A stretch of 64,000 bases of DNA from Campylobacterota bacterium (GCA_003252535.1 QKDN01000042.1:1-64000), one strand, 5' to 3'. Numbered from the stretch's first letter, positions 10,298 to 57,800 are shown. The notes: generated from the sequence alone by a model not told the origin. Numbers and translations are program-made.

Positions 10298-11434
10298 CTA
10301 ACTCTGACTATAGATCGTAAGATAACGGTCAAAAACAAACAGTTTATTTCTTTGAAATCCCGTGATTTCTCTGAGAATACCTTTTGCTTCAAATTCTTTT
10401 ACCAATGAGTTTGCCGTAGGTTTGCTTATTTCTAATGATTCGACAATTTCATTAATGGCAATAATAGGTCTTTGATACAAAAACTCTATCAGCTTGCCTG
10501 CATTATGGGCTTTCTTACCGAAACCGATTATCAGACTGTCCATCTCCTGCTTGAGGGTGAGAATATCCTGAAATGTCCTGATACCGCTGTTTGCCGTCAC
10601 GATGACAGCCTCCAGGAAAAACTTGATCCATCGGTTGAGATCATTATCGGTTCGCACATGGGTCAATGCCTCATAGTACACTGTCTTGTTCTTTTCGATA
10701 AAATCCGAAAGGTACAAGGATGGTTTTTTGAGAAGTCCATTGCTGACCAGATAAAGTGTGATCAAAAGCCTTCCTATCCTGCCATTACCGTCCAGGAACG
10801 GGTGTATCGTCTCGAACTGATAGTGTGCTATAGCTATCTTGACCAAATGCGGGACGAGTATTTCATCATTGTGCAGGAACTTTTCCAGGTCGCTCATCAA
10901 CTCATCTACCTCATTATGATGCGGAGGAATGAAATAGGCCGTTGCCAGACTCGCTCCGCCTATCCAGTTCTGAGACCGCCTGAACTCCCCAGGCTGTTTA
11001 GTCTCACCCCGTACACTGCTGAGCAGAATATGATGGATATTTTTGATCAGCCTGTTCGAGATAGGAAGTTTTTCGAGCTCTTTGATAGCATAGTTCATCG
11101 CATCGATATAGTTTCGTACCTCCTGCCAGTCATCTCTTTTCTCGGGATTGATCTGTTCTTTAGCGACGAGTACCTCATCGATCTCAGTCTTGGTGCCTTC
11201 GATCTTGCTCGATGTGTTCGCCTCTTTGGTAATGTGCATCTGGATGAAGATATCGATATTGGGCACGATCATCGTATAGGCATTGAGCTCACCCAGAGCC
11301 CTGGTTGCGTTTTCGAGCATAGTATTGATCTGCGGATCATCCCAGGTGAAAGTATGGTTGATCTTTTCGGGCAAAAAACTTTTGTATTGATACTCCTGGC
11401 GAAGTGTGCCAGCTTTGAAATTATTGATGTTCAT
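10298..11434 (-). CDS. Fic-domain protein, probable AMP-transferase with C-terminal winged helix
   Basis: Fic enzymes usually transfer AMP to a hydroxyl of a target protein. The 378 residues include a Fic_N region and the catalytic motif HPFLDGNGRIGR (His211-Arg222). The N-terminal self-inhibition motif S-x3-E-G (Ser75-Gly80 in SSKIEG) is that of class II Fic proteins. The C-terminal part (about 300-378) looks like a winged helix (INEIVESLEISKPTANSLVK). The gene is AT-richer than the nif genes around it, which suggests transfer. Its ATG overlaps the stop of a 54-residue gene by 4 bases. The target is unknown. Confidence 0.9.
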   Translation of the reverse strand: MNINNFKAGTLRQEYQYKSFLPEKINHTFTWDDPQINTMLENATRALGELNAYTMIVPNIDIFIQMHITKEANTSSKIEGTKTEIDEVLVAKEQINPEKRDDWQEVRNYIDAMNYAIKELEKLPISNRLIKNIHHILLSSVRGETKQPGEFRRSQNWIGGASLATAYFIPPHHNEVDELMSDLEKFLHNDEILVPHLVKIAIAHYQFETIHPFLDGNGRIGRLLITLYLVSNGLLKKPSLYLSDFIEKNKTVYYEALTHVRTDNDLNRWIKFFLEAVIVTANSGIRTFQDILTLKQEMDSLIIGFGKKAHNAGKLIEFLYQRPIIAINEIVESLEISKPTANSLVKEFEAKGILREITGFQRNKLFVFDRYLTIYSQS

Positions 11435-11595
11435 ATTGTTTGTGTAAAAAGCGTGCGGAGTTTCTCTTTTTTCTTCTTGTTTCTGCCCGTATCTTTGTCA
11501 TGGACGAACATAGAGAATACTTTTTTTGCATCTGCCCCCGAAAGGAGGACACCGCTCTCTTCTTTTGCCTGTTTGTTGATATGTTTCACAGCCAT
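11431..11595 (-). CDS. Small basic protein coupled to fic (54 aa)
   Basis: The translation begins MAVKHINKQAKEESGVLLSG and continues with KVFSMFVHDKDTGR and a lysine-rich NKKKKEKLR end. An AAAGGAGG site seven bases before the ATG at 11595 and a 4-base ATGA overlap with the Fic start make it a convincing gene despite its size. I do not recognise the family. Position resembles an antitoxin or accessory gene of a Fic module, yet the Fic protein already carries its own inhibitory motif, so this partner would be additional. Confidence 0.72.
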   Translation of the reverse strand: MAVKHINKQAKEESGVLLSGADAKKVFSMFVHDKDTGRNKKKKEKLRTLFTQTI

Positions 11596-11665
11596 TTGGC
11601 TACCTCCTTTACAGAGATGATATTTGGTAGATTATAACACAAATATATCCAAAATGACTAAAATC

Positions 11666-11851
11666 TTACGAAAGCCTCACATCCTTGAGCAGGGCGCTCA
11701 GGTCGTTGTTGAACCTGTTGAGGAGGTCGATGAGTTCGTCCCTCTTCTCATCGATAGCGAAGCGGCTTTCGATGGTATCGTAGATGGCGGTGGTGTTGCC
11801 GAAAATGTCGAGCATCAGCTGTGCTTTGATCCTATCTTCTATCTGTCCCAT
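11666..11851 (-). CDS. Small hypothetical protein (61 aa)
   Basis: The protein is acidic, soluble and largely predicted helical (MGQIEDRIKAQLMLDIFGNT, then IDEKRDELIDLLNRFNNDLS). No motif is recognised. It lies 10 bases downstream of the redoxin gene and is the third gene of the hemerythrin-redoxin group, so it probably belongs to the same transcript. Confidence 0.6.
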   Translation of the reverse strand: MGQIEDRIKAQLMLDIFGNTTAIYDTIESRFAIDEKRDELIDLLNRFNNDLSALLKDVRLS

Positions 11852-11861
11852 GTCCGGCTCC

Positions 11862-12335
11862 TTATGCGCTCATCCAGTCTTCGTGGGTATGACCTTTTTT
11901 CTTGAACTTGATCGCTTCATCGAGCGCCGTATCGAAGGCATCGATATCGAGCGCTTCTCCATCGAGCACCGCGAGGTCCCTGTAGACGATCTCGCCGTCC
12001 TTGTTGACGATGAAGACCGAGCCGACGCAGCTCTCGTCACGGTAGACACCGTACTTGAGCGAGAACTTCTCGCACTCGGTCGTGGCGCTGACAGCGCCCA
12101 GCGGGCAGCTGATCGGCTCGGGGCAGATGAGATAGACGGAGGCTTTCTCATCGTACTTGAGCATGGTGTCGAGGAGCTTTGTCGAGAGCTCTTTGGCCGA
12201 GGGGATCGTCACCATCACCTGTACCTTGGGGGCCATCATCCCGATGACCATCTCCGAGCCCTCCGTGTTTTTGAGCCTCACGGCGGGGGCTTCCATCCCT
12301 ACGAACTTTTGTTTCTGTATCGGTTTAGTCGGCAT
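11862..12335 (-). CDS. Thiol peroxidase-like redoxin lacking the usual active Cys
   Basis: The 157 residues have the Tpx/AhpC-like thioredoxin fold: GMEAPAVRL, VMVTIPSAKELS, VYLICPEPISCPLGAVSA, KYGVYRDESCVGSVFIVNKDGEIVY. In thiol peroxidases the PSxDTPVC motif carries the peroxidatic Cys; here that site reads PSAKELST, with no Cys. Three other positions (ICPEPISC, TTEC, ESC) do have cysteines. It may be a peroxidase with moved chemistry or a non-catalytic relative. Its start overlaps the hemerythrin gene by 11 bases, which indicates coupled expression near the nif genes. Confidence 0.78.
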   Translation of the reverse strand: MPTKPIQKQKFVGMEAPAVRLKNTEGSEMVIGMMAPKVQVMVTIPSAKELSTKLLDTMLKYDEKASVYLICPEPISCPLGAVSATTECEKFSLKYGVYRDESCVGSVFIVNKDGEIVYRDLAVLDGEALDIDAFDTALDEAIKFKKKGHTHEDWMSA

Positions 12336-46141: not shown

Positions 46142-46287
46142 TCTTCATCTCTCGACTATCAATTTTTGAAATAAATATACTATAATTATCCATCACCTCC
46201 AAAGGATATCCTATAGCATTTCACAGCAGCGATTATATCGGTACTATTGTCAAAGCAATCAATCGTAATTTCAAACGGCTTGATGAT

Positions 46288-48234
46288 GTGGTTGAACAGT
46301 GCAAAGAGTTGCAAAAAGCGCAAGCTAAGTATACTCAAGCGCTTAATGAATTTCATTTGCCGATCTATAAATCCATATTTAAAAAACATCAATATCGAGA
46401 GAATTTGGATAATGCAAAAAATGTTGTTACGGAGATCAAAAAAGATATTGGCTATTACTGTGATGGTTACACGACTATTGAACCATTGACGATAGGACTT
46501 TTTGGTGAATGGGGAAGCGGCAAGACCCATTTGTTAAAAGGGATCAAAAATCGTATACTTGAAGATGAAGAGAAGAAGTTAAAACTTTGGGAAAATACAC
46601 CAAAGGATCAGTATATTACCATTGACAAGATGATTATACCGATATTTTTTAATGCATGGCGTTTTGAAAAAGAAGAACATATTATCATTCCTCTGGTCAA
46701 AACGATGGTGAGTGAACTAGAGAAATATGACTATATCGAGCAATACAAAAAGATACAAGCCAAGATAAAAATACTTGCTCTTTCGCTAATAGCAGGACTT
46801 CAAATGCCTAGCGGAGGATTGGATAGTTTAACCAAAGTTATTACAGGTGAGGATTTGGGGCTGATTGGGAGTTTTTTCGATAGTGCCAAAATGGGTAAGA
46901 AGCTTACAGAGCTAGCAGACAAACAAGATAGATCAAAACAGCTTGGCAAGATACTATCAGAAGAGCGTATAGAGTCAATATATCTCAATATACCCCAATG
47001 GATAGAGAAGATCACGATGTTGGACAATGTCCGCTTCGTATTCCTCATTGACGATCTTGATCGTTGTCTACCAGAGAATACACTCAAGATGCTAGAATCG
47101 ATCAAGCTCTTCCTCGATGTGGCGGGGTGTGCCTTCGTCCTCGCGGTCGATGATGATGTGGTAGAGCGTGGAGTGGAGCACCACTACCGCGACTATATCC
47201 AGCGCAATGACAACTATATCTATATCAACAACCACGGCGAAAAGAGTGACGAGGAGAGGCAATCCTGCCAGACCCAGAAGAGCTCGCACCTTTCTCTCCC
47301 CATCACAGGCAACGAATACCTTGAGAAGATGGTACAGCTCCCCCTGCGCATCCCGCCGCTCGACAGTCCCAATACCCGCGAATATCTCCTGACGACTCAC
47401 AAAGAGCTCTTTACGGTACAGGAAAGGACTCGTGAGGGTGAGCGGGAGAGCATGGACGAAAGGATCGATGAGAAGCTTCTGGAGTTTTTCATCCGTGCGA
47501 CCCCTCCCACTCCTCGTAAGATCATCCGAGCAGTCAATCTCTATGAGGTGAAGCGTGATCTCATCGCTGACCTTGGCGTAGCAGTCGACAGGATACTCGT
47601 AGCCAAAGTAACGATGCTTGAGCTCTTTGCACCAAGGCTCTATCGGTTTATCAAAAACAACGATATCATACAGATCATTGAGAGGCTCAACGGGTGGATC
47701 AACATGAAGGAGGTACAGAGTCTCCATGAGAGTGAGAAGATATGTGCATGGATAGAGAAGAACAAAACGCCTCGCAAAGAGTATGAGATATACAAGGAGC
47801 TCCTGGCGATCATCATGACGCTCAACAGCAGCCGTGTGAACTTCGATCTCGATTTGATATTCGGTGAGATCGATCCTGATCTGGTCGTCAACTATATCAA
47901 GCTAATAAAAGTCAAAAAAGAAGAGAAAAAAACAAAGTCGTCAGGGGTGAACAAACCCAGGGTAGTACCGTTTGATCTTGATCGATTCTATGAGTACATT
48001 ATGAGCAGTGATAGCACGATCTGGCGTAAGGCATTTAGTGAAGATAGGGCATTTAACGAAGATGTGTGGCTTGATGAACTGACGATTGGACAGCTGATCG
48101 CGAAAGCTAAAGTGAGACCCGGCATCATCGAACCGAAATGGCTGGAGATCGTTGCAGAGTATATGAGTGAGGATGATTTTATGACACTACTCAAAGAGCT
48201 CGATCCTATCAGGAGACTGGTAGATGAAGAATAG
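46288..48234 (+). CDS. KAP-family P-loop NTPase
   Basis: 648 residues from GTG 46288. The KAP pattern is clear: Walker A GEWGSGKT (73-80), FFNAWRFEKEEHIIIPLV (120-137), Walker B RFVFLIDDLDRCLP (249-262) and FVLAVDDDVVERGVEHHY after it. No transmembrane pair is evident between the motifs, unlike many KAP proteins. KAP members include phage-exclusion protein PifA; most have no known role. Coding-like sequence extends 25 codons upstream to ATA 46213, which has an AAAGGA site 6 bases before it, so the listed start may be a fallback. It overlaps the repeat protein gene by 11 bases. Base composition shifts near 47100. Confidence 0.85.
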   Translation: MVEQCKELQKAQAKYTQALNEFHLPIYKSIFKKHQYRENLDNAKNVVTEIKKDIGYYCDGYTTIEPLTIGLFGEWGSGKTHLLKGIKNRILEDEEKKLKLWENTPKDQYITIDKMIIPIFFNAWRFEKEEHIIIPLVKTMVSELEKYDYIEQYKKIQAKIKILALSLIAGLQMPSGGLDSLTKVITGEDLGLIGSFFDSAKMGKKLTELADKQDRSKQLGKILSEERIESIYLNIPQWIEKITMLDNVRFVFLIDDLDRCLPENTLKMLESIKLFLDVAGCAFVLAVDDDVVERGVEHHYRDYIQRNDNYIYINNHGEKSDEERQSCQTQKSSHLSLPITGNEYLEKMVQLPLRIPPLDSPNTREYLLTTHKELFTVQERTREGERESMDERIDEKLLEFFIRATPPTPRKIIRAVNLYEVKRDLIADLGVAVDRILVAKVTMLELFAPRLYRFIKNNDIIQIIERLNGWINMKEVQSLHESEKICAWIEKNKTPRKEYEIYKELLAIIMTLNSSRVNFDLDLIFGEIDPDLVVNYIKLIKVKKEEKKTKSSGVNKPRVVPFDLDRFYEYIMSSDSTIWRKAFSEDRAFNEDVWLDELTIGQLIAKAKVRPGIIEPKWLEIVAEYMSEDDFMTLLKELDPIRRLVDEE

Positions 48235-50485
48235 AGCCAAGATACTCGAGACCATCGAGGTGATCAACAATCGGATCAATCCACGACATCGCAAGGCGAT
48301 CACCACGCTCGATCCCACTCTCTTCGCGTCGCTCGATGGCAAGTGGGAAGAGCTCAATCCATACAATACCAATCTTAGGGGTGTACCTATTGATGGGAAG
48401 GTAGAGGAGGATCGCATTCCAATAGCTCCTCCGACATTGAAACCATTGTCAAGGATAAGATTGACATCAAATATTGAAGAGATAATAGCACTAGATGAGT
48501 ATTTAGTGATTGCAAGTGGTCGTGAGATACTGATATACGAGTATCACAGTCAAAAGATTATCAATACATTATTAGCAAAAGATTCTATTCTCGCTATAGC
48601 CAAAGTAGCTGAAGGGGTGATTGCATATGGCGGAAGAGATAGTCAAGTGACATTAGTGAATATTAACGATCCATGCAATCCTGTGAAGCTTGGCGAGATT
48701 AGATCAAAAGACTCAGTTCTCTCTATAACCAAAGCGGCTGATGGGGTGATCGTCTACGGTGGAGATGATAATTGTGTAACATTTGTCAATATCACTAATC
48801 CTTCCAATCCACAAGTTCTAAGCGTGAGTGAATCAACACATAGGATTCGTTGTGTTACGAAAGTAGGTGATGCTATAATCGCCTATGGCGGGAGTGATGG
48901 CCGAGTGACATTAGTGAATATTAGTGATCCTACAAAGCTACGAATACTAGGTGTAATAAGCTCAAAAAATAGAGTTCGCTCTATAACCAAAGTAACAGAG
49001 AAAATAATAGCTTATGGCGGTGATGATAATTGTGTAACATTTGTCGATATCGGTAATCCTTCCGATCCACAAATTCTTAGTGTAATTGAATCAACAGATA
49101 GAGTTCATTGCGTTGCTAAAATAGCTGAAGGTATGATTGCCTATGGAGGAAGTGATGATCGCGTGACGTTAGTGAATATCGATGATCATTATTTACCACA
49201 AAAAATGAATGTAATAGAGACAAAAGGCTCGGTTTATTTCATCACAAAACTGGCAGAGGGATTAATCGCTTATGGTGGTAATAATAAACTGGTCACACTG
49301 CTAGATATATATGACGCTGCTTTACCAAAAGTATTGAATGTGATCGAGTCACAGCAATGGATTCATGCTCTAGCTAAAGTATCAGAGGGGATGATAGCCT
49401 ATGGTGGAGCAGATGGGCAAGTGACTTTTGTTGATATCGACAAATCATCAAACTTTAGATTATATGGCACAATAAATGAGCAAAGTTCTTGGATTCGCTC
49501 TATAACAAAAGTGGGAAAAGATCTAATAGCATATGGTGGTGATGATCAGCAGTTTGCGTTAGTTAGTACTGCTGATAATTCCTTGCCCAAAGTGCTTGAG
49601 AGGATCGATTCACAAGGCTGGATTAATTCGATCGCAGAAGTTGCTGACGGGGTGATCGCCTACGGAGGGTATGATAAAAAATTGACACTGGTCTATATCG
49701 GGAGCCTTGATTCACCCAAAAAATTGGGAGAGATCAAAACAAAAGGTATAGTCAACTCCATAGTTAAAATATCAGAGGGGATAATTGCATACGGTGGAAA
49801 TGATAATCGCGTCACACTAGTAAATATTGGAAATTTTGCTTCACCTAAAGTATTGGGGGAAATCGAATCAAAAGATAAAGTCCGATGCATAGTTAAAATA
49901 TCAGAGAAGATAATTGCTTATGGAGGGTATGATAAACAAGTGACATTGGTTGATGTTGATAACCCTGCTTCAACTAAAATAGTGGGAGCACTCAAGTCAA
50001 AGGATACTGTTCTTTCTATTGTCAAAGTAATGGATGGAATGATTGCATATGGTGGCTTTGACAATCAAATAACATTGGTTGATATTCATGATCCTAGCAA
50101 TCCTGTGCAGTATGGAACGATTGAATCACAAGGTTTGGTTCTTTGCATTGCCAAAGTAGGTGAAAAGTTGATCGCGTATGGTGGAAGCGATGGGCAAGTG
50201 AGTATAATTGATATCAGTGACCCCAATCATCTACGACAACTCTCATCGATGCAGAATCTCGACGGTGAGACTATGGAGTTGAAGACTGAGAGTGGAGAAA
50301 TTATCCTCCAAAGTAGTGAACCCTTCGAGCTTGTCGATGACGAGCGACTCTACAAGTACGCATGGTTCGTTGGAGATGGCGGGAAAGCCTATCCATACTA
50401 TATGTGCGAGGATAGAGTGGAGTTCAGCGAGGATCGCAGGAGCGTACGGCTCCTCACACAGGCACGAAGTAGCGGGGAGTCGTGA
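48224..50485 (+). CDS. Repeat protein with 13 propeller-like 43-residue repeats
   Basis: 753 residues without signal peptide or membrane segment. Residues 123-682 are thirteen repeats of 43 residues (one of 44) on the pattern ITKVxEGxIAYGGxDxxVT, then LVNIxDPxxPxxLGxIES. A degenerate unit at about 93-122 makes fourteen. The pattern resembles LVIVD/WD40-type beta-propeller blades, and fourteen would make two seven-blade propellers. The flanks (1-80 and 690-753) are not recognised. It probably senses or binds a partner for the coupled KAP NTPase; this is inference. It overlaps genes on both sides. Confidence 0.8.
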   Translation: MKNRAKILETIEVINNRINPRHRKAITTLDPTLFASLDGKWEELNPYNTNLRGVPIDGKVEEDRIPIAPPTLKPLSRIRLTSNIEEIIALDEYLVIASGREILIYEYHSQKIINTLLAKDSILAIAKVAEGVIAYGGRDSQVTLVNINDPCNPVKLGEIRSKDSVLSITKAADGVIVYGGDDNCVTFVNITNPSNPQVLSVSESTHRIRCVTKVGDAIIAYGGSDGRVTLVNISDPTKLRILGVISSKNRVRSITKVTEKIIAYGGDDNCVTFVDIGNPSDPQILSVIESTDRVHCVAKIAEGMIAYGGSDDRVTLVNIDDHYLPQKMNVIETKGSVYFITKLAEGLIAYGGNNKLVTLLDIYDAALPKVLNVIESQQWIHALAKVSEGMIAYGGADGQVTFVDIDKSSNFRLYGTINEQSSWIRSITKVGKDLIAYGGDDQQFALVSTADNSLPKVLERIDSQGWINSIAEVADGVIAYGGYDKKLTLVYIGSLDSPKKLGEIKTKGIVNSIVKISEGIIAYGGNDNRVTLVNIGNFASPKVLGEIESKDKVRCIVKISEKIIAYGGYDKQVTLVDVDNPASTKIVGALKSKDTVLSIVKVMDGMIAYGGFDNQITLVDIHDPSNPVQYGTIESQGLVLCIAKVGEKLIAYGGSDGQVSIIDISDPNHLRQLSSMQNLDGETMELKTESGEIILQSSEPFELVDDERLYKYAWFVGDGGKAYPYYMCEDRVEFSEDRRSVRLLTQARSSGES
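48590..50269 (+). repeat. Thirteen tandem 129-base coding repeats
   Basis: Each unit encodes one 43-residue blade (unit 7 has one extra codon). AYGG or VYGG recurs at the same place in every unit. The DNA of units is diverged while the protein pattern is kept, so this is an old expansion rather than a recent slip. Confidence 0.85.
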
Positions 50486-51144
50486 TGCTCACTATCCTCC
50501 TCCTCGAAGACGACCCGATCATCGCCGATATACTCAGAGAGTACCTCGAGGGGAAGGGGTATGGGGTGGCGTATGCCTACGATATCGGGGAGGTCTATGA
50601 CCATATCGACCGCAGCAGCTTCGACCTCTACCTCTTCGATGTCAATGTCCCCGGCGGCAACGGCTACGAGCTCCTCGGGGATATACGGCGCAGCGGCGAC
50701 CGCACCCCTACCATCTTCATCACCGCACGCGGCGGGATCGGGGATATGAAGGAGGGGTTTGCCAGCGGTTGCGACGACTATATCCGCAAGCCATTCGAGC
50801 TCGACGAACTGGAGCTGCGGATCGAGAACATCAAGCGCATCTACCGACTCGACACCCTTGTCCGTATCGACGAGACGCTGAGCCTCGACCGGGAGAACCT
50901 CGCGCTCATCGTGGACGGTGAAGCACGGACGATCAGGGAGAAGGAGTTCGCCATCCTCGAGTACCTCGCCAGGCACAGCGGCAGGGTCGTCTCGCACGAG
51001 GAGCTGACCCGCAATGTCTGGGCGTACGAGGAGCATCCCGGCGACGCGACGCTGCGCACCTATATCAAGAACCTTCGCCGCCTCGTCGGAGCCGAGCGGA
51101 TCGAGACCGTCAAGGGGGTGGGCTATCGTTTTGTCAACGCTTGA
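50485..51144 (+). CDS. OmpR-family response regulator
   Basis: 219 residues: a receiver domain with LLLEDDPIIADIL, phospho-Asp in LYLFDVNVPGGNGYE, TIFITARG and IRKPFELDELE, then a winged-helix domain (LTRNVWAYEEHPGDATLRTY, IKNLRRLVG, VKGVGYRFV). ATG 50485 shares a base with the propeller gene's stop, and the kinase start overlaps its end, so it is co-translated with both. It is markedly GC-richer than the propeller repeats. Targets are unknown; the metal efflux operon downstream is convergent, not in the same direction. Confidence 0.9.
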   Translation: MLTILLLEDDPIIADILREYLEGKGYGVAYAYDIGEVYDHIDRSSFDLYLFDVNVPGGNGYELLGDIRRSGDRTPTIFITARGGIGDMKEGFASGCDDYIRKPFELDELELRIENIKRIYRLDTLVRIDETLSLDRENLALIVDGEARTIREKEFAILEYLARHSGRVVSHEELTRNVWAYEEHPGDATLRTYIKNLRRLVGAERIETVKGVGYRFVNA

Positions 51145-52273
51145 GAGGCGATCGTTCGTCAGCTTCCTGGGGCTCTACCTCGGCTCGTCGTTCGCCCTGA
51201 TCATTATCATCGCCGTGCTCTACTACGACACGGTCTCGGGGACGATGGTGCAGATGCGCCAGGATGCCATGAAGAGCCACGGGGCGCAGCTCGCATTCGC
51301 AGCGATCGGGGCGCACATGCACCGCCAGCCCTTCGACTACCGCAACGATACACCCTACAGCGTGGGGATGTACTCGAGCGCCCGTGAGCTCCTCTATGGT
51401 GAGGAGATCGAGGGGGCAGATTTCAACAGCTCGGTCTACACCCGTGACGACACCCTCTATGTGATCGACCGCTCGGCGCAGCTCCACATGGGGGTGAAGT
51501 ATATCGTCCTGCGCGACCGTACCATCTTCGGCGAGGTGGCGAAGCTGCGGGAGCGTGTGGTGATCTATACCCTCTTCACGCTGCTGCTGGTCGGCGCGAT
51601 AGGATACATCCTAGGCCGCCTCTTCCTCCGCCCCATCGCCAACGAACGCGAACGGCTCGACCGCTTCATCAAGGACACTACCCATGAGCTCAACACCCCC
51701 ATCTCCGCCCTCCTGATGAGTATCTCAGCTCTCGGCGGTGAGGAGAGCAGGGCAAAGGAGCGCATCCGCCTCAGCGCCGGCCGCATCTCTGCCATCTACG
51801 ACGACCTCTGCTACCTCCTGCGCGACGAGCGGGGCGGACACGGTGAGGTCACGGAGCTCGACCTGCGGGAGATCGTCACCGAGCAGCTCGCGCTGCTGGA
51901 GGGATATGCCAGGAGCAAGCGGATAGAGATCGTTACATCACTGGAGAGCCTGACCGTCGTCATCGACCCCGAGAGTGCGAGGAGACTGGTGGGCAATATC
52001 CTCGGCAACGCCCTCAAATACTCCCGCCCCAACACCACCGTCGAGGTGACGCTCGCAGGCAATGCGCTCACCGTCACCGACCACGGCATCGGCGTAGACC
52101 CGGGCGAACTCTCCCGAATCCAAAACCGCTACTACCGCGCCGACAACAGCGAAGGGGGCTTCGGGATAGGACTCGACATCGTCAGCACGATCTGCAAACG
52201 CTACGGCATAGGGTTCGAGATCGAATCGGTGAAAGGGGAAGGGACGAGGGTGAGGTTGGTGTTCGGCGTGTGA
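51131..52273 (+). CDS. Sensor histidine kinase
   Basis: 380 residues from TTG 51131, which overlaps the regulator by 14 bases. Two membrane segments (SFLGLYLGSSFALIIIIAVL and VIYTLFTLLLVGAIGYILG) flank a periplasmic domain of about 120 residues. The dimerisation box DTTHELNTPISALL carries the phospho-His. The ATPase domain has GNALKYSRPN, VTDHGIGVDPGEL and GGFGIGLDIV. No ATG is available near the first membrane segment, so TTG is the likely start. The signal is unknown. Confidence 0.88.
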   Translation: MSTLERRSFVSFLGLYLGSSFALIIIIAVLYYDTVSGTMVQMRQDAMKSHGAQLAFAAIGAHMHRQPFDYRNDTPYSVGMYSSARELLYGEEIEGADFNSSVYTRDDTLYVIDRSAQLHMGVKYIVLRDRTIFGEVAKLRERVVIYTLFTLLLVGAIGYILGRLFLRPIANERERLDRFIKDTTHELNTPISALLMSISALGGEESRAKERIRLSAGRISAIYDDLCYLLRDERGGHGEVTELDLREIVTEQLALLEGYARSKRIEIVTSLESLTVVIDPESARRLVGNILGNALKYSRPNTTVEVTLAGNALTVTDHGIGVDPGELSRIQNRYYRADNSEGGFGIGLDIVSTICKRYGIGFEIESVKGEGTRVRLVFGV

Positions 52274-52548: not shown

Positions 52549-55500
52549 TTATCTCCTCCACCTCAAACTCACCAGATACAAAACCGGAATGATTATCAGC
52601 GTCAATATCGCTGAAGTGACAACCCCTCCTATCATCGGGGCGGCGATGCGCTGCATCACTTCGCTTCCCACACCGTGGGTGTACATGATGGGGATGAGGC
52701 CGCCGATGATGGCGAATACCGTCATGAGCTTGGGGCGGAGGCGGAGCGCTGCGCCGCTGTAGATCGCTTCGAGGTGCTCGGCATGGGTGAGGGGACGGGC
52801 GAGCTCGGTGTGCTTCTGCTCGATCGCTTCGGTGAGGTAGATGATCATCACGATGGCGGTCTCGGCGGCGACACCCAGCAGCGCCAGGAACCCGACGATC
52901 ACCGCCACGGAGATATTGAACCCCAGGTAGTCGATATAGAGGAGACCGCCGAAGAGGGCGAAGGGGAGGGTCGAGAATACGATGAGCGAGTCGCTGAGCC
53001 TCCCCAGCGCCATATAGATGAGGATGAAGATCAGCAGGAGGGTGACCGGGATGATGTAGCGGAGCTTCTCCATCGCCTGTTCGAGGTAGCGGCTCTGCCC
53101 CGACCACTCGTAGTAGTAGCCTGTGGGGAGCTTGATGTCGGTCAGCGTTTTCTGCGCCGCTTCGCGGTACTCCTCGCTGCTGATCCCCTCCTTGGGGGTG
53201 ATGTAGACGAAGGAGACCTTCATCCCCTTCTCACTCTTGATCACGCTCGCGCTCTCCTTGAACGAGAACGAGGCGAAGTTGCGCAGCGGCTGCATCCCGT
53301 AGCGGGTCTTGATGTGGATATCGGCGATCGATTCGAGGCTCTTGCGGTTGGTACCCTGGAGGCGGAGCGAGACGGGGTAGCGTTCGAGGTTCTGCACCAT
53401 CGTCGTGACCTTGTTTCCCCCGACCCCCAGCGAGACGGCATCGAGGATATCGTTCTTGCTCACGCCGTAGCGGGCGAGCTTCTCCTGGTCGATATCGAGG
53501 GAGATGTAGTAGCCGCTGTTGGACTTGTCCGCCGAGACGCTGAGGCTCTGCGGGAGGGTTTTGAGCTTCTGCTCGATGGCGGAGCTGATCTTCTGGAGCT
53601 CGTTGTTGTCGCTGCCGTAGAGCTTGATCCCCAGCGGGGTGCGGATGCCGGTGAGGAGCATATCGATGCGGCCGCGGATGGGGTAGGTCCATGAGTTGAT
53701 GAGACCGGGGATCTTGAGCTCCTTGTCCATCATAGTCATGAGCTTCTCGTAGCTCATCCCCTCACGCCACTGTGACGGGTCCTTGAATTCTATGATCGTC
53801 TCGATCATCGCCAGCGGCGCGGGGTCGGTGGCGGTGTCGGCGCGGCCCGCCTTGCCAAAGACGCTCGCCACCTCGGGGAAGGACTTGATGATCCTGTCGG
53901 TCTGCTGGGTGAGCTCTTTGGCCATATCGATACCGATACCGTAGGGGGTGACCGGCATATACATGAAGGTCTGCTCGTTCATCATCGGCATGAACTCCCA
54001 CTTCTGCCCCTTGTAGAGGGGGTAGATAAAGGCAAGCGCGCCAAAGAGGAGTAGGATCACGAGGTAGCGCCCCCTGAGCGAGAGGTGGAGGATAGGGGAG
54101 TAGAGGAAGAGAAAGAAACGGTTGATCGGGTTGCGGTGCTCGTCGATGATGTGGCCTCGGATGAGGGCGAGCATCAGCACCGGGACGAGGGTGATCGAGA
54201 GGATCGCCCCCACGATCATCGCGAAGCTCTTGGTGTACGCCAGCGGGGTGAAGAGCCGCCCCTCCTGCCCCGTGAGGGCGAAGATGGGGAGGAACGAGAC
54301 GACGATGAGCAGCAGCGCGAAGAAGATCGGCGTCCCCACCTGCTTGGCTGCTTTGAGGATCGCCTCGGTGCGCTGCGCGGGGGTGGGGTTGGTCAGGGGT
54401 GCGAGGTACTTGTGGGCGTTCTCGATCATGACGATCGTCGCATCGACCATCGCCCCGATCGCTATGGCGATACCACCGAGGCTCATGATGTTCGACCCGA
54501 TACCGGAGAGCTTCATCAGAAGGAATGTCAGCGCCACGGTGAGCGGCAGGACGAGGATGATGATGAGGGCGCTGCGGAGATGGAAGAGGAAGATGGCGCA
54601 GACGAGCATCACGATGAGCGACTCCTCGACCAGCGTGCTCTTGAGGGTGTCGATCGCCTTGTCGATGAGGGCGCTGCGGTCGTAGGCGGTGACGATCTCG
54701 ATATCTTTGTTGACGATGGTGGCGAGCTTCTGCTTGACCCGCTCGATGACGCTGTAGGGGTTCTCGCCGTAGCGCACCACGACGATACCCCCCACCGTCT
54801 CACCCTCGCCGTTGAAGTCCGCCATCCCGCGTCGCGATGCGGGGACGATCCGTACCTCACCGATATCTTTGACCTTCACGGGCTGCCCGGCGACACTCCT
54901 GATGGTGATGTTCTCTATATCCTTCTCGTCCCTGAGATACCCTTTGGCCTCGATGATCTTCTCGTAGCCGTTCTCGAGGACGATCCTCCCCCCTGCGTCG
55001 TTGTTGTTGGCTCTGAGGGCTTTGGCCACTTCGGCGAAGGAGATGTCATACTGGATGAGCCGCCCCTGGTCGAGGCTCACCTCGTAGTCCCTGACGAAGC
55101 CGCCGACCGCCGCCACTTCGCTCACCCCGTCGACCCCGAGGAGGGCGTACTTGAGGTAGTAGTCCTGGTAGCTGCGGAGCTCGTCGAGCGACTTGTCCGC
55201 AGATTTGAGGACATACTCGAACGCCCAGCCCACGCCCGTCGCGTCGGGGCCTATCGAGACCTCCGCTTCTTTGGGGAGGGTGGGGGCGAGCTGCGAGAGC
55301 TGCTCGAGGATGCGGGTGCGCGCGTCATAGAGGTCGGTGTTCTCCTTGAAGATCACATAGATCATCGCGTTCTCGAAGCTGCTCATCGCCCGCACCGTCT
55401 CGATGCCGCTGAGGCTCATGAGGTTGGAGATGAGCGGGTAGCTCACCTGGTCTTCGATGATGCGGGGGGACTGCCCGGGGTACTTCACCTGGAGGATCAC

Positions 55501-55638
55501 CTGCGGGGGCGAGAGGTCGGGGAGGGCGTCGAGCGAGGTGTGCTTGATCGCCCACACCGACGCCCCGAGGGCGATCAGCAGGAGGCTGAAGAGGAGAAAG
55601 AGATTGCGGACGCTCGCGTCGATGATCTTCCCTACCAT
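52549..55638 (-). CDS. cusA: CusA-like heavy-metal RND efflux pump
   Basis: Inner-membrane proton-driven pump exporting a metal ion, probably Cu(I)/Ag(I), through a CusBC-type channel. The 1029 residues have twelve expected membrane segments in two halves with large periplasmic loops. HME-RND hallmarks are SIGPDATGVGWAFEYVL, RGRIDMLLTGIRTPLGIKLY and ATIVMIENAHKYL. The resemblance to CusA in these blocks is strong; metal choice is inferred. It is last of a four-gene minus-strand operon and its gene begins 9 bases after cusB ends. Confidence 0.92.
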   Translation of the reverse strand: MVGKIIDASVRNLFLLFSLLLIALGASVWAIKHTSLDALPDLSPPQVILQVKYPGQSPRIIEDQVSYPLISNLMSLSGIETVRAMSSFENAMIYVIFKENTDLYDARTRILEQLSQLAPTLPKEAEVSIGPDATGVGWAFEYVLKSADKSLDELRSYQDYYLKYALLGVDGVSEVAAVGGFVRDYEVSLDQGRLIQYDISFAEVAKALRANNNDAGGRIVLENGYEKIIEAKGYLRDEKDIENITIRSVAGQPVKVKDIGEVRIVPASRRGMADFNGEGETVGGIVVVRYGENPYSVIERVKQKLATIVNKDIEIVTAYDRSALIDKAIDTLKSTLVEESLIVMLVCAIFLFHLRSALIIILVLPLTVALTFLLMKLSGIGSNIMSLGGIAIAIGAMVDATIVMIENAHKYLAPLTNPTPAQRTEAILKAAKQVGTPIFFALLLIVVSFLPIFALTGQEGRLFTPLAYTKSFAMIVGAILSITLVPVLMLALIRGHIIDEHRNPINRFFLFLYSPILHLSLRGRYLVILLLFGALAFIYPLYKGQKWEFMPMMNEQTFMYMPVTPYGIGIDMAKELTQQTDRIIKSFPEVASVFGKAGRADTATDPAPLAMIETIIEFKDPSQWREGMSYEKLMTMMDKELKIPGLINSWTYPIRGRIDMLLTGIRTPLGIKLYGSDNNELQKISSAIEQKLKTLPQSLSVSADKSNSGYYISLDIDQEKLARYGVSKNDILDAVSLGVGGNKVTTMVQNLERYPVSLRLQGTNRKSLESIADIHIKTRYGMQPLRNFASFSFKESASVIKSEKGMKVSFVYITPKEGISSEEYREAAQKTLTDIKLPTGYYYEWSGQSRYLEQAMEKLRYIIPVTLLLIFILIYMALGRLSDSLIVFSTLPFALFGGLLYIDYLGFNISVAVIVGFLALLGVAAETAIVMIIYLTEAIEQKHTELARPLTHAEHLEAIYSGAALRLRPKLMTVFAIIGGLIPIMYTHGVGSEVMQRIAAPMIGGVVTSAILTLIIIPVLYLVSLRWRR

Positions 55639-55647
55639 GGCGTCCCC

Positions 55648-56604
55648 TTACCACTCGTCGTTGTAGAGGCCGTTGGTGACGGCGTCGCTGTCGAGGAGGA
55701 AGAGGGCATTGGCGACGATCTCGTCACCCTCCTCCGCCCCGCTGCTGATCTCGTACCCCTCGGGGGTGCGTACCGCCTCGACCTCGATCGGGGTGTATTC
55801 GTTCCCCTCTTTGGAGAAGAGATAGTGTTTCCCCTCCCTTGTCACGACGGCGTTGTGGGGGACGATGAGGTGTTTTTGCGACTTCTCGTAGATGTGTACC
55901 CTGGCGAACATACCGGGGTAGAGTCTGAGCTCCGGGTTGGGGAGGACGATCCGCACGGGGATGGTCTGGTCGGCAGGGTTGAGGGCGGGGTAGAGGGCGT
56001 CGACCTTCGAGTCGATCCTCCCGCTCACGCCGTCTATCTCCGCCGTTGCCCTCATCCCCTCGCGGACGAACCCCCTGTCCTTCTGGTAGACATTGGCGAT
56101 GAGCCAGAGGGAGGAGAGGTCGGTGATCTCGAGGGCGCGCTTGCCCGCCATCACGAAGCTCCCCTCCCTGAGGTCGTTCGCCGTGATGATACCGTCGACG
56201 CTGCTGCGGATCGTCACGCTGCCGTCGCTGTTGCGCTCGGGCGCGTCGATGCCGAAAAGGGCGATCTTGTTCCTGATCGATTCGTAGAGGGCTGGGGAGC
56301 TCTTTTGGGCGATGCGCAGCTCATCGTAGAGGTTGTAGACCTCTTTGGAGTAGATATCGAAGAGCTTGTCCCCTTTGGCGATGCGCATATAGTCGCGGTC
56401 GGCATAGAGTCTGGTGATGTAGCCGCCGAAGCGGAGGCTGAGGTCATGGGTGCGGGCGCGCTCGGCGCTGAGGCGGCCGTAGTACTCCCTGTAGGGGGCG
56501 TCGTCGCGGCTCTCGACCTTGATGGTCCTGATATTGAACGCCTGTTCGATCCGGAACCCCCAGAGGGTATCGGCGATGGCGAGGAGAAACAGCAGGTATC
56601 TCAT
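55648..56604 (-). CDS. cusB: CusB-like periplasmic adaptor
   Basis: Membrane-fusion protein linking the RND pump to the outer-membrane channel. At 318 residues it is shorter than typical CusB. It has a signal peptide (MRYLLFLLAIADTLWG), a barrel-sandwich region (GYITRLYADRDYMRIAKGDK and VDGIITANDLREGSFVMAGK), a helical hairpin and a beta-barrel part (DALYPALNPADQTIPVRIVL). The extra N-terminal metal-binding part of E. coli CusB is not evident. The start overlaps the channel gene's stop by 4 bases. Confidence 0.85.
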   Translation of the reverse strand: MRYLLFLLAIADTLWGFRIEQAFNIRTIKVESRDDAPYREYYGRLSAERARTHDLSLRFGGYITRLYADRDYMRIAKGDKLFDIYSKEVYNLYDELRIAQKSSPALYESIRNKIALFGIDAPERNSDGSVTIRSSVDGIITANDLREGSFVMAGKRALEITDLSSLWLIANVYQKDRGFVREGMRATAEIDGVSGRIDSKVDALYPALNPADQTIPVRIVLPNPELRLYPGMFARVHIYEKSQKHLIVPHNAVVTREGKHYLFSKEGNEYTPIEVEAVRTPEGYEISSGAEEGDEIVANALFLLDSDAVTNGLYNDEW

Positions 56605-57800
56605 AGTCGGGCTTCCAGTCGTGAGGTGAGGTAGCTGAGCTCCAGCTCGGCGAGGCGGAGCTCTTTGCGGTAGGTGAGGAGTTCGATCTCGCTCTCGATG
56701 ATCCTGTTCCTGAGCATGGTCGCCTCCTGTATGCTCTGGGCGGAGTTCTGCGAGAGGATGAACTCCCGCTCCTTCCTGAGGTGCTCCATCAGCGAGCGGC
56801 GGTTGGCGAGGGCTCTGAGGGCGAGCTCCCGTTTGGAGAGGGCGACCCTGTAGAGCGATTCGATCTCGTTGTAGGTCTCGTCGTAGGCGCTCCGGGATGC
56901 GGAGAGGGCGCTCATGCTCTTGGCGAGCTCCCGCTCCTCCCTGCCGTAGACGGGGAGGGGCATCGAGACCGAGAGGTTGAGATAGTCGTCGCGCCCGTCG
57001 CGCTGGTAGTAGCCGCCGCTGATCGTAGGGTTGGGGGTGAGGTTGGCATTGGCGAGCTCGTGCGCGCTTTTGGCCTGCTCGATACGGAGCTTCTGGATGC
57101 GCAGGAGGATGTGGCCGTGGATGCTCTTGCCGTATTTAGGTTCCCGGGAGATCGTGAGGCTTGTGATCCGCTTGCCCGCGAGTTCGGAGAGCTTCACATA
57201 GAGCTGGCTGTTCTGCTCTTCCTTAGAGAGGATGGCGAGGCGGATGTTCTCGATATCGAGGTCGTTCCGGATGATATCCTGGAAGGCTTTTTTCTCTTCC
57301 AAGTGCTCGTTGTGGTAGGCGCTGAGCTCGCGGATATTGGCGATCTTCTCCCGCAGCAGGGAGATGGTGCGGTCGTTCTGCGCTATCTCGTACCCCAGCG
57401 CATAGATCGACCTCGCGATCCGGTGCTTCTGCTCGCTCAGGAGGAGTGCGGCGATCTCCTGCTCGAGGCTCTTGATCCGGGTGTTGTACCCCCGCTTCTC
57501 ACTGCTGACGATCTCCTGTGAGAAGGTGACGAAGTTGGTCTGCATCGCTTCGATATCCCGCTTGAACGGTGTCCTGAGGGAGATATCGGCGAATCCTGCC
57601 GAGAGCATGGGGTTGGGGAGGAGCGCGGCGATCTGGCTGTCGTATCCCTTGGAGCGGATATCGGCGGAGAGCCTGGCGAGGGTAGGGTTGCGCCTGTCGG
57701 CGTACCCGATCACGGAAGCGATATCCTCGGCTGCGAGCAGCGAGGAGACGACCGCGATCAGCGCGGCTACATGGCCGAACCGCATTTGCCCGAAGCGCAT
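56601..57800 (-). CDS. TolC/CusC-type outer-membrane channel
   Basis: 399 residues with a signal segment (HVAALIAVVSSLLAAED) and long helical stretches of the outer-membrane efflux protein family. Examples are RNPTLARLSADIRSKGYDSQ, IEQAKSAHELANANLTPNPT and LNLSVSMPLPVYGREERELA. It forms the outer-membrane exit of the efflux system. The ATG at 57800 has GGAGGG five bases upstream and lies within the end of the preceding gene, a 34-base overlap in another frame. Confidence 0.85.
   Translation of the reverse strand: MRFGQMRFGHVAALIAVVSSLLAAEDIASVIGYADRRNPTLARLSADIRSKGYDSQIAALLPNPMLSAGFADISLRTPFKRDIEAMQTNFVTFSQEIVSSEKRGYNTRIKSLEQEIAALLLSEQKHRIARSIYALGYEIAQNDRTISLLREKIANIRELSAYHNEHLEEKKAFQDIIRNDLDIENIRLAILSKEEQNSQLYVKLSELAGKRITSLTISREPKYGKSIHGHILLRIQKLRIEQAKSAHELANANLTPNPTISGGYYQRDGRDDYLNLSVSMPLPVYGREERELAKSMSALSASRSAYDETYNEIESLYRVALSKRELALRALANRRSLMEHLRKEREFILSQNSAQSIQEATMLRNRIIESEIELLTYRKELRLAELELSYLTSRLEARL

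Follow-up and report, generated by a model that had tools for sequence, protein, structure and literature searches.

Among the systems described so far, the HET-D/HET-E/HNWD proteins of Podospora anserina are among the closest comparisons for the locus presented here. In the HET-D/HET-E repeats, codons 7, 9, 25 and 27 are positively selected and flank the conserved codons 8 and 26 (PMC1805685). In bacteria, a link to innate immunity has been suggested for the WRAP/WD40-type propellers with their high repeat content (PMC6805158, PMC9218822), and KAP NTPases have previously been noted among the targets of diversity-generating retroelements (DGRs; PMC10907252), so that a KAP protein as a DGR target is not new in kind. 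Our literature search returned no description of a propeller counterpart on the same KAP NTPase.

Here we examine such a combination in the window, by which we mean the whole 64,000-nucleotide stretch of DNA analysed (Campylobacterota bacterium, GCA_003252535.1, QKDN01000042.1:1-64000). A KAP NTPase gene is followed in it by an overlapping gene for a propeller protein of 753 residues, and we think it fairly probable that the two products form a two-subunit, NLR-like immune or kin-recognition receptor.

Layout of the locus and recurrence of the KAP-propeller pair

On the plus strand of the window the KAP frame runs to 48234, past the start of the propeller frame at 48224 (an overlap of 11 bases); the propeller frame ends at 50485, the first base of the ATG of a response regulator gene (an overlap of 1 base, or 4 if GTG at 50482 is used), and this gene ends at 51144, beyond the TTG at 51131 of a histidine kinase gene (14 bases). 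An earlier note on this DNA had described four genes with overlaps of 11, 1 and 14 bases, all of which are present in the sequence, and the identities it gave them agree with Pfam matches to KAP_NTPase, to WD40/beta-propeller families, to Response_reg and Trans_reg_C, and to HisKA and HATPase_c. The features of the region are as follows.

46181-46186, plus strand: candidate -10 element TATAAT, read from the sequence
46201-46206, plus strand: candidate Shine-Dalgarno sequence AAAGGA, 6 nt 5' of the KAP start codon, read from the sequence
46213..48234, plus strand: KAP P-loop NTPase, 673 aa (Pfam, homologues, start-codon comparison, AlphaFold2 model)
48224..48451, plus strand: N-terminal domain of the propeller protein (ITNRxNPxYRKEI ... 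NLRG), from the alignment, kept in all KAP-linked homologues
48473..50251, plus strand: 14 four-stranded blades of 43 residues each, predicted as two tandem seven-blade rings (repeats and model)
50264..50482, plus strand: C-terminal domain of the propeller protein (LYKYA..YPYYM..), conserved in L061, L104, L072 and L113
50485..51144, plus strand: response regulator of the OmpR/PhoB type, adjacent and judged to lie outside the module
51131..52273, plus strand: sensor histidine kinase, pairing with the response regulator, adjacent and judged to lie outside the module

The window protein matches Pfam KAP_NTPase with an E-value of 1.8e-36 (126 bits against a cut-off of 20), and it belongs to this family by its intact Walker A (GEWGSGKTHLL) and Walker B (FLIDDLDRC) motifs, which are invariant across the homologue alignment. 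Its N-terminus is helical, as is its C-terminal domain, and its AlphaFold2 model has a pLDDT of 70. A profile search finds 11 homologues, full or partial, at 36-50% identity, all in Campylobacterota assemblies, and more distant ones besides; PDB sequence searches gave no matches. By profile the protein is likened to the defence NTPases QatA and PifA, and by fold, weakly, to RdrA. GC3 shifts along the window KAP gene (46213-48234), with values of 0.37, 0.65 and 0.46 in successive segments, which suggests mosaic ancestry.

The KAP-propeller junction, with an overlap of 4-14 bases and a conserved propeller N-terminal domain, is found at eight loci in seven Campylobacterota genomes (the window, L069, L070, L071, L072, L073, L074 and L113), which makes the NTPase and repeat-protein genes of the earlier note a genuine, recurrent pair. 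Further KAP searches, covering 175 genomes of the family, 399 of the order and 397 of the phylum, added two genomes (G583 and G020) and otherwise returned mostly the same ones; any KAP match at all is present in 18 of the 397, and far fewer belong to this KAP clade. When the propeller alone was used as seed, scans of genomes and viral sequences gave no relatives, because its peptide patterns lack conservation. Phages and viral contigs gave no match to the KAP profile, and the pair turned up in none of the phage or plasmid records; the matches obtained in plasmids were to generic propellers and generic KAP/QatA proteins (20-26% identity), different from this pair, and were set aside.

Apart from those covered by a profile search, the flanking genes were judged by eye. 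Those 3' of the propeller include a ComEA-like gene and ftsZ at L061, a PIN-domain toxin-antitoxin pair (by eye) and recR at L104, DUF4160/DUF2442-like genes (by eye) at L072, and a sixA-like gene and valS at L113. An enrichment of defence genes, for which the earlier note had suggested looking, is not borne out, the neighbours being by eye largely housekeeping genes and forming no defence island. Decay is frequent: at L072 (8001-10597) the KAP gene has an internal stop and the propeller gene is down to one blade, which may be either a real loss or an assembly collapse, and at L079, where a transposase-like gene (by eye) lies next to it, the KAP frame ends prematurely. Such decay (L072, L079, L059) is expected of a costly recognition gene, and equally of a dispensable gene.

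Repeat structure and evolution of the propeller

The array in the window consists of 13 GG-type units, whose AYGG/VYGG cores recur every 43-44 residues, and a degenerate first blade, which together give the 14 repeat units counted earlier. AlphaFold2, run on an alignment of the window protein and homologous proteins, likewise predicts 14 four-stranded blades, mostly with pLDDT near 90 and with a dip in confidence where blade 7 meets blade 8, in a model whose pTM is only 0.44 and whose end domains are poorly modelled. The best Foldseek matches in the PDB include the tandem seven-blade WD40 proteins Gemin5 and Utp21, so that model and structural matches both agree with the two seven-blade propellers first suggested from the repeats, for which structure prediction had been named as the check. 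The protein is thus a member of the WD40-like beta-propellers, with ring closure as predicted by the model. The L113 array is a single tandem repeat (period 120, 12.3 copies, 91% matches) and also has 14 blades including a degenerate first one. These two are the complete, intact arrays, and blade number is known for them only, because the homologues are for the most part from metagenome bins and the array is cut off by the contig end in many of them. At 48689-49204 of the window a two-blade unit of 258 nt is repeated at 74% identity, which suggests duplication in two-blade steps.

At the protein level, blades within an array are 48-91% identical and blades of different arrays 26-57%, except for two G525 contigs, which are from one genome and probably carry the same array. 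Judged by these identities, the blades evolve in concert, those of one array resembling each other more than they resemble the blades of other arrays. Counted from the A of AYGG, the most variable columns in the window, L113 and G525 are -14, -13, -11, +4 and +6; they lie to either side of column -12, where V (or I) is conserved, and of column +5, where D is. Four of the top five variable columns are common to L113 and G525, as are four of five to the window and G525 (p 6e-4 each), and amino-acid states are concentrated in the variable columns (p 2e-6 in L113, 2e-8 in G525 and 1e-3 in the window). The combination of residues at the five columns is unique to each blade (13/13, 11/11 and 12/12).

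Codon comparisons point in the same direction. At variable columns chosen in another array, codon pairs of L113 have 176 nonsynonymous and 3 synonymous differences, against 129 and 103 elsewhere, counts that are not independent of one another; a stricter count of distinct states gives a CMH p of 0.002, with single-array tests reaching only p 0.03-0.09. The paired residues of the top face combine a strong concentration of change at the same columns with low synonymous change, subject to the same dependence between codon pairs. On the model, the variable residues map to two places, the d-a loop that leads into strand a and the b-c turn, the conserved V being in the loop and the conserved D in the turn. 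These positions match the selected loop and turn of HET-D/HET-E in position and structure, not by sequence homology.

Start codon and partners of the KAP NTPase

In the window's KAP frame, ATG, GTG and TTG are all missing ahead of residue 26, and its apparent start is the ATA at 46213. Although an ATA, this is where the earlier note had put the start, and correctly so, since homologues carry ATG or ATC at the aligned codon: it is ATG in L075 and L079 and ATC in L069, L072, L073 and L074. The apparent AUH starts are thus at 46213 in the window, 4893 in L069, 8001 in L072, 3870 in L073 and 417 in L074. Each of these has a Shine-Dalgarno-like sequence a few bases 5', and a promoter and Shine-Dalgarno layout like that of the window is also seen 5' of the four ATC starts. 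In all, AUC or AUA is the apparent start codon in five of the eight KAP genes that are linked to a propeller, and the other three (L070, L071 and L113) use ATG. At L073 and L074 no ordinary start follows until residue 123 or 145, past the P-loop, which is too late to give a working NTPase. As L073 and L074 share one genome bin and L072, with its internal stop, is a copy in decay, there are about three to four independent AUA/AUC cases. In Staphylococcus aureus reporters, conserved AUA and AUU starts cut expression to about 10% of that from AUG (PMC13009471), and the AUA/AUC starts seen here would imply that KAP expression is throttled. A connection to IF3 autoregulation was also considered, and no specific link emerged, given that the infC frames of six of these genomes show no sign of an AUH start, with an upstream TTG in most.

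In three members of the same KAP clade (L075, L076 and L077) a fused C-terminal FGE-sulfatase (C-type-lectin-like) domain replaces the separate propeller gene, and KAP proteins on contigs of G029 end like these fusions. At L076 (Sulfurovum NORP62) genes for bAvd and a reverse transcriptase lie behind the KAP-FGE fusion and the set of parts is complete, with the VR at 10481-10588, bAvd at 10736-11071, the RT at 11050-12126 and the TR at 12135-12242. Comparison of the last 108 bases of the VR with the template copy places 10 of 10 substitutions at template adenines, and by this defining signature the element is a diversity-generating retroelement. No DGR template was found for the C-terminal domain of L077, whose contig ends 343 bases later. 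The window's genome has no RVT_1 match, and the features of a DGR target are seen only at the sister locus L076. In the KAP tree a single lectin clade has moderate support (89/75), and the propeller-type KAPs branch around it in an unsupported order. In G019 a related KAP overlaps a NACHT gene behind it that is apparently truncated; at L059 (5329-7024) a KAP gene overlaps a short, early-stopping NACHT gene, a possible third type of partner.

Interpretation and comparison with known systems

The earlier note took all four genes as one unit and put forward, as a hypothesis, a two-component-controlled stress or defence module. In such a unit the two-component system would sense a stress and switch on the KAP-propeller pair, or else the pair would feed the histidine kinase. 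The same-strand chain with its three overlaps is in favour of this, and makes co-transcription likely in the window. However, neither a response regulator nor a histidine kinase gene follows the propeller at the four other loci with a visible 3' end (L061, L104, L072 and L113), and pairs related to that of the window are common in relatives (up to 48% identity for the regulator and 40% for the kinase). Such a pair is present in G003, G008, G022 and G031, where no KAP homologue was found, and the neighbourhoods of the pairs inspected in G003, G008, G031 and G040 have neither KAP nor propeller. There is also a sharp break in composition at the propeller/regulator boundary, GC3 being 0.30-0.65 in the KAP and propeller genes versus 0.83-0.90 in the regulator, the kinase and the downstream RND efflux genes. 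Because of these absences, the frequency of the pair elsewhere and the GC3 break, we regard the two-component genes as a local junction and the single four-gene unit as very improbable. The earlier note would have called the unit a chance junction if the first two genes were never adjacent elsewhere or if the two-component genes occurred widely without them; on that basis the NTPase-propeller half stands, as the pair recurs, and the two-component half is the chance junction. A sensor or defence role is still the best reading, without two-component membership. CusA/CusB-like RND efflux genes and a further upstream gene (52549-57800) are convergent with the regulator-kinase pair and are a possible regulatory target; no such RND genes lie beside the related pairs inspected.

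Two further readings concern the KAP-propeller pair itself. The propeller could assist, as a scaffold or a chaperone-like adaptor, a KAP that acts at the membrane or on the cytoskeleton in housekeeping or stress, the likeness of the blades reflecting recent amplification of a single blade and nothing else. Highly repetitive propellers do arise continually and many decay (PMC9218822), and the one blade remaining at L072 beside an interrupted KAP gene would be in keeping with this, but neutral differentiation after amplification would not be expected to gather replacements at the same few surface positions of independent arrays, and the patchy distribution of KAP matches and the partner swap with a DGR-type domain also speak against an adaptor, which we consider unlikely. 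Alternatively, the mechanism may be that of a receptor but serve to tell self from non-self among conspecifics, in kin discrimination or plasmid incompatibility, in place of anti-phage defence. Here the nearest pattern of repeat evolution, that of the fungal allorecognition genes het-d/het-e, weighs in favour, whereas the KAP relatives of known function (QatA and PifA) are anti-phage and NTPase sensors diversified by DGRs have been interpreted as sensing antigens (PMC10907252), and we give this, too, a rather small chance.

In the receptor that we favour, the propeller would be the sensor, with the hypervariable residues on one face of both rings binding a foreign or non-self ligand, and the KAP ATPase would be the signalling or killing subunit, held to the sensor through the conserved end domains; that the two proteins touch is suggested by the overlap of their genes. 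Binding at the sensor would switch KAP on, probably by ATP-driven oligomerisation, and active KAP would stop the cell, as in NLR/STAND-type defence. For binding, activation and the result for the cell we reason by analogy with QatA/PifA-type KAPs, the RdrA fold, DGR sensors and fungal receptors. The output is the weakest point of the proposed mechanism, as no killing domain (nuclease, TIR or protease) is recognised in the KAP-propeller module. Specificity would be renewed by recombination, through which blades are gained, lost and made uniform, under selection for contact residues that differ; related KAPs have exchanged the propeller for a fused lectin-like domain open to retroelement diversification, and the AUA/AUC start would keep the KAP subunit scarce in several lineages. 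The sequences themselves establish that the genes pair, that the blades evolve in concert with their diversity at particular positions, that partners have been swapped, that one locus has a DGR signature and that an ordinary start codon is lacking; the rest of the model, from the ligand and its binding to oligomerisation, the effect on the cell and low expression, is inferred. A broader and more tentative proposal is that of a bacterial two-gene NLR analogue in which a single KAP clade has used two engines of sensor hypervariability, blade homogenisation and a retroelement acting on the lectin domain, and with a conserved AUC/AUA start that keeps a lethal subunit scarce. If this is true, a prokaryote builds a receptor repertoire much as fungal allorecognition genes do, with diversity at the same blade positions, and the same NTPase can trade a propeller sensor for one mutated by a retroelement. 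How bacterial immune receptors keep pace with their targets would become directly testable in a two-gene system, and the apparent AUC/AUA starts provide a testable claim as to how a dangerous immune NTPase is kept low.

Of the known systems, RADAR provides in its RdrA ATPase the best solved-structure match of the KAP model, with TM-scores of only about 0.2, and the window has no deaminase partner. QatABCD likewise has a KAP NTPase domain, and the window protein gives a partial QatA match of 132.5 bits, far below the cut-off of 600; qatB, qatC and qatD are absent next door, where the window has instead the propeller, response regulator and histidine kinase genes. WRAP/WD40 highly repetitive propellers (PMC6805158, PMC9218822) similarly have many near-identical blades per bacterial chain, whereas the window protein has LVIVD/GG-type blades, dedicated end domains, a fixed KAP partner and measured hypervariable positions. 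DGR-diversified NTPase antigen sensors (PMC10907252) and NTP-dependent conflict systems (PMC7159879) also join an NTPase to a variable sensor, and DGR-type systems share the CLec/FGE variable domain, reverse transcriptase and bAvd with the sister KAP locus L076, although the sensor in the window is a separate propeller diversified by repeat turnover. Podospora HET-D/HET-E/HNWD likewise combine an NTPase with a WD40 propeller, have blades homogenised by concerted evolution (PMC1805685, PMC2873952), as is found here, and have their diversity at paired residues that flank conserved ones in the d-a loop and in the b-c turn; the system described here differs from them in having KAP in place of NACHT, two overlapping genes in place of one polypeptide and no known effector domain, and in being bacterial.
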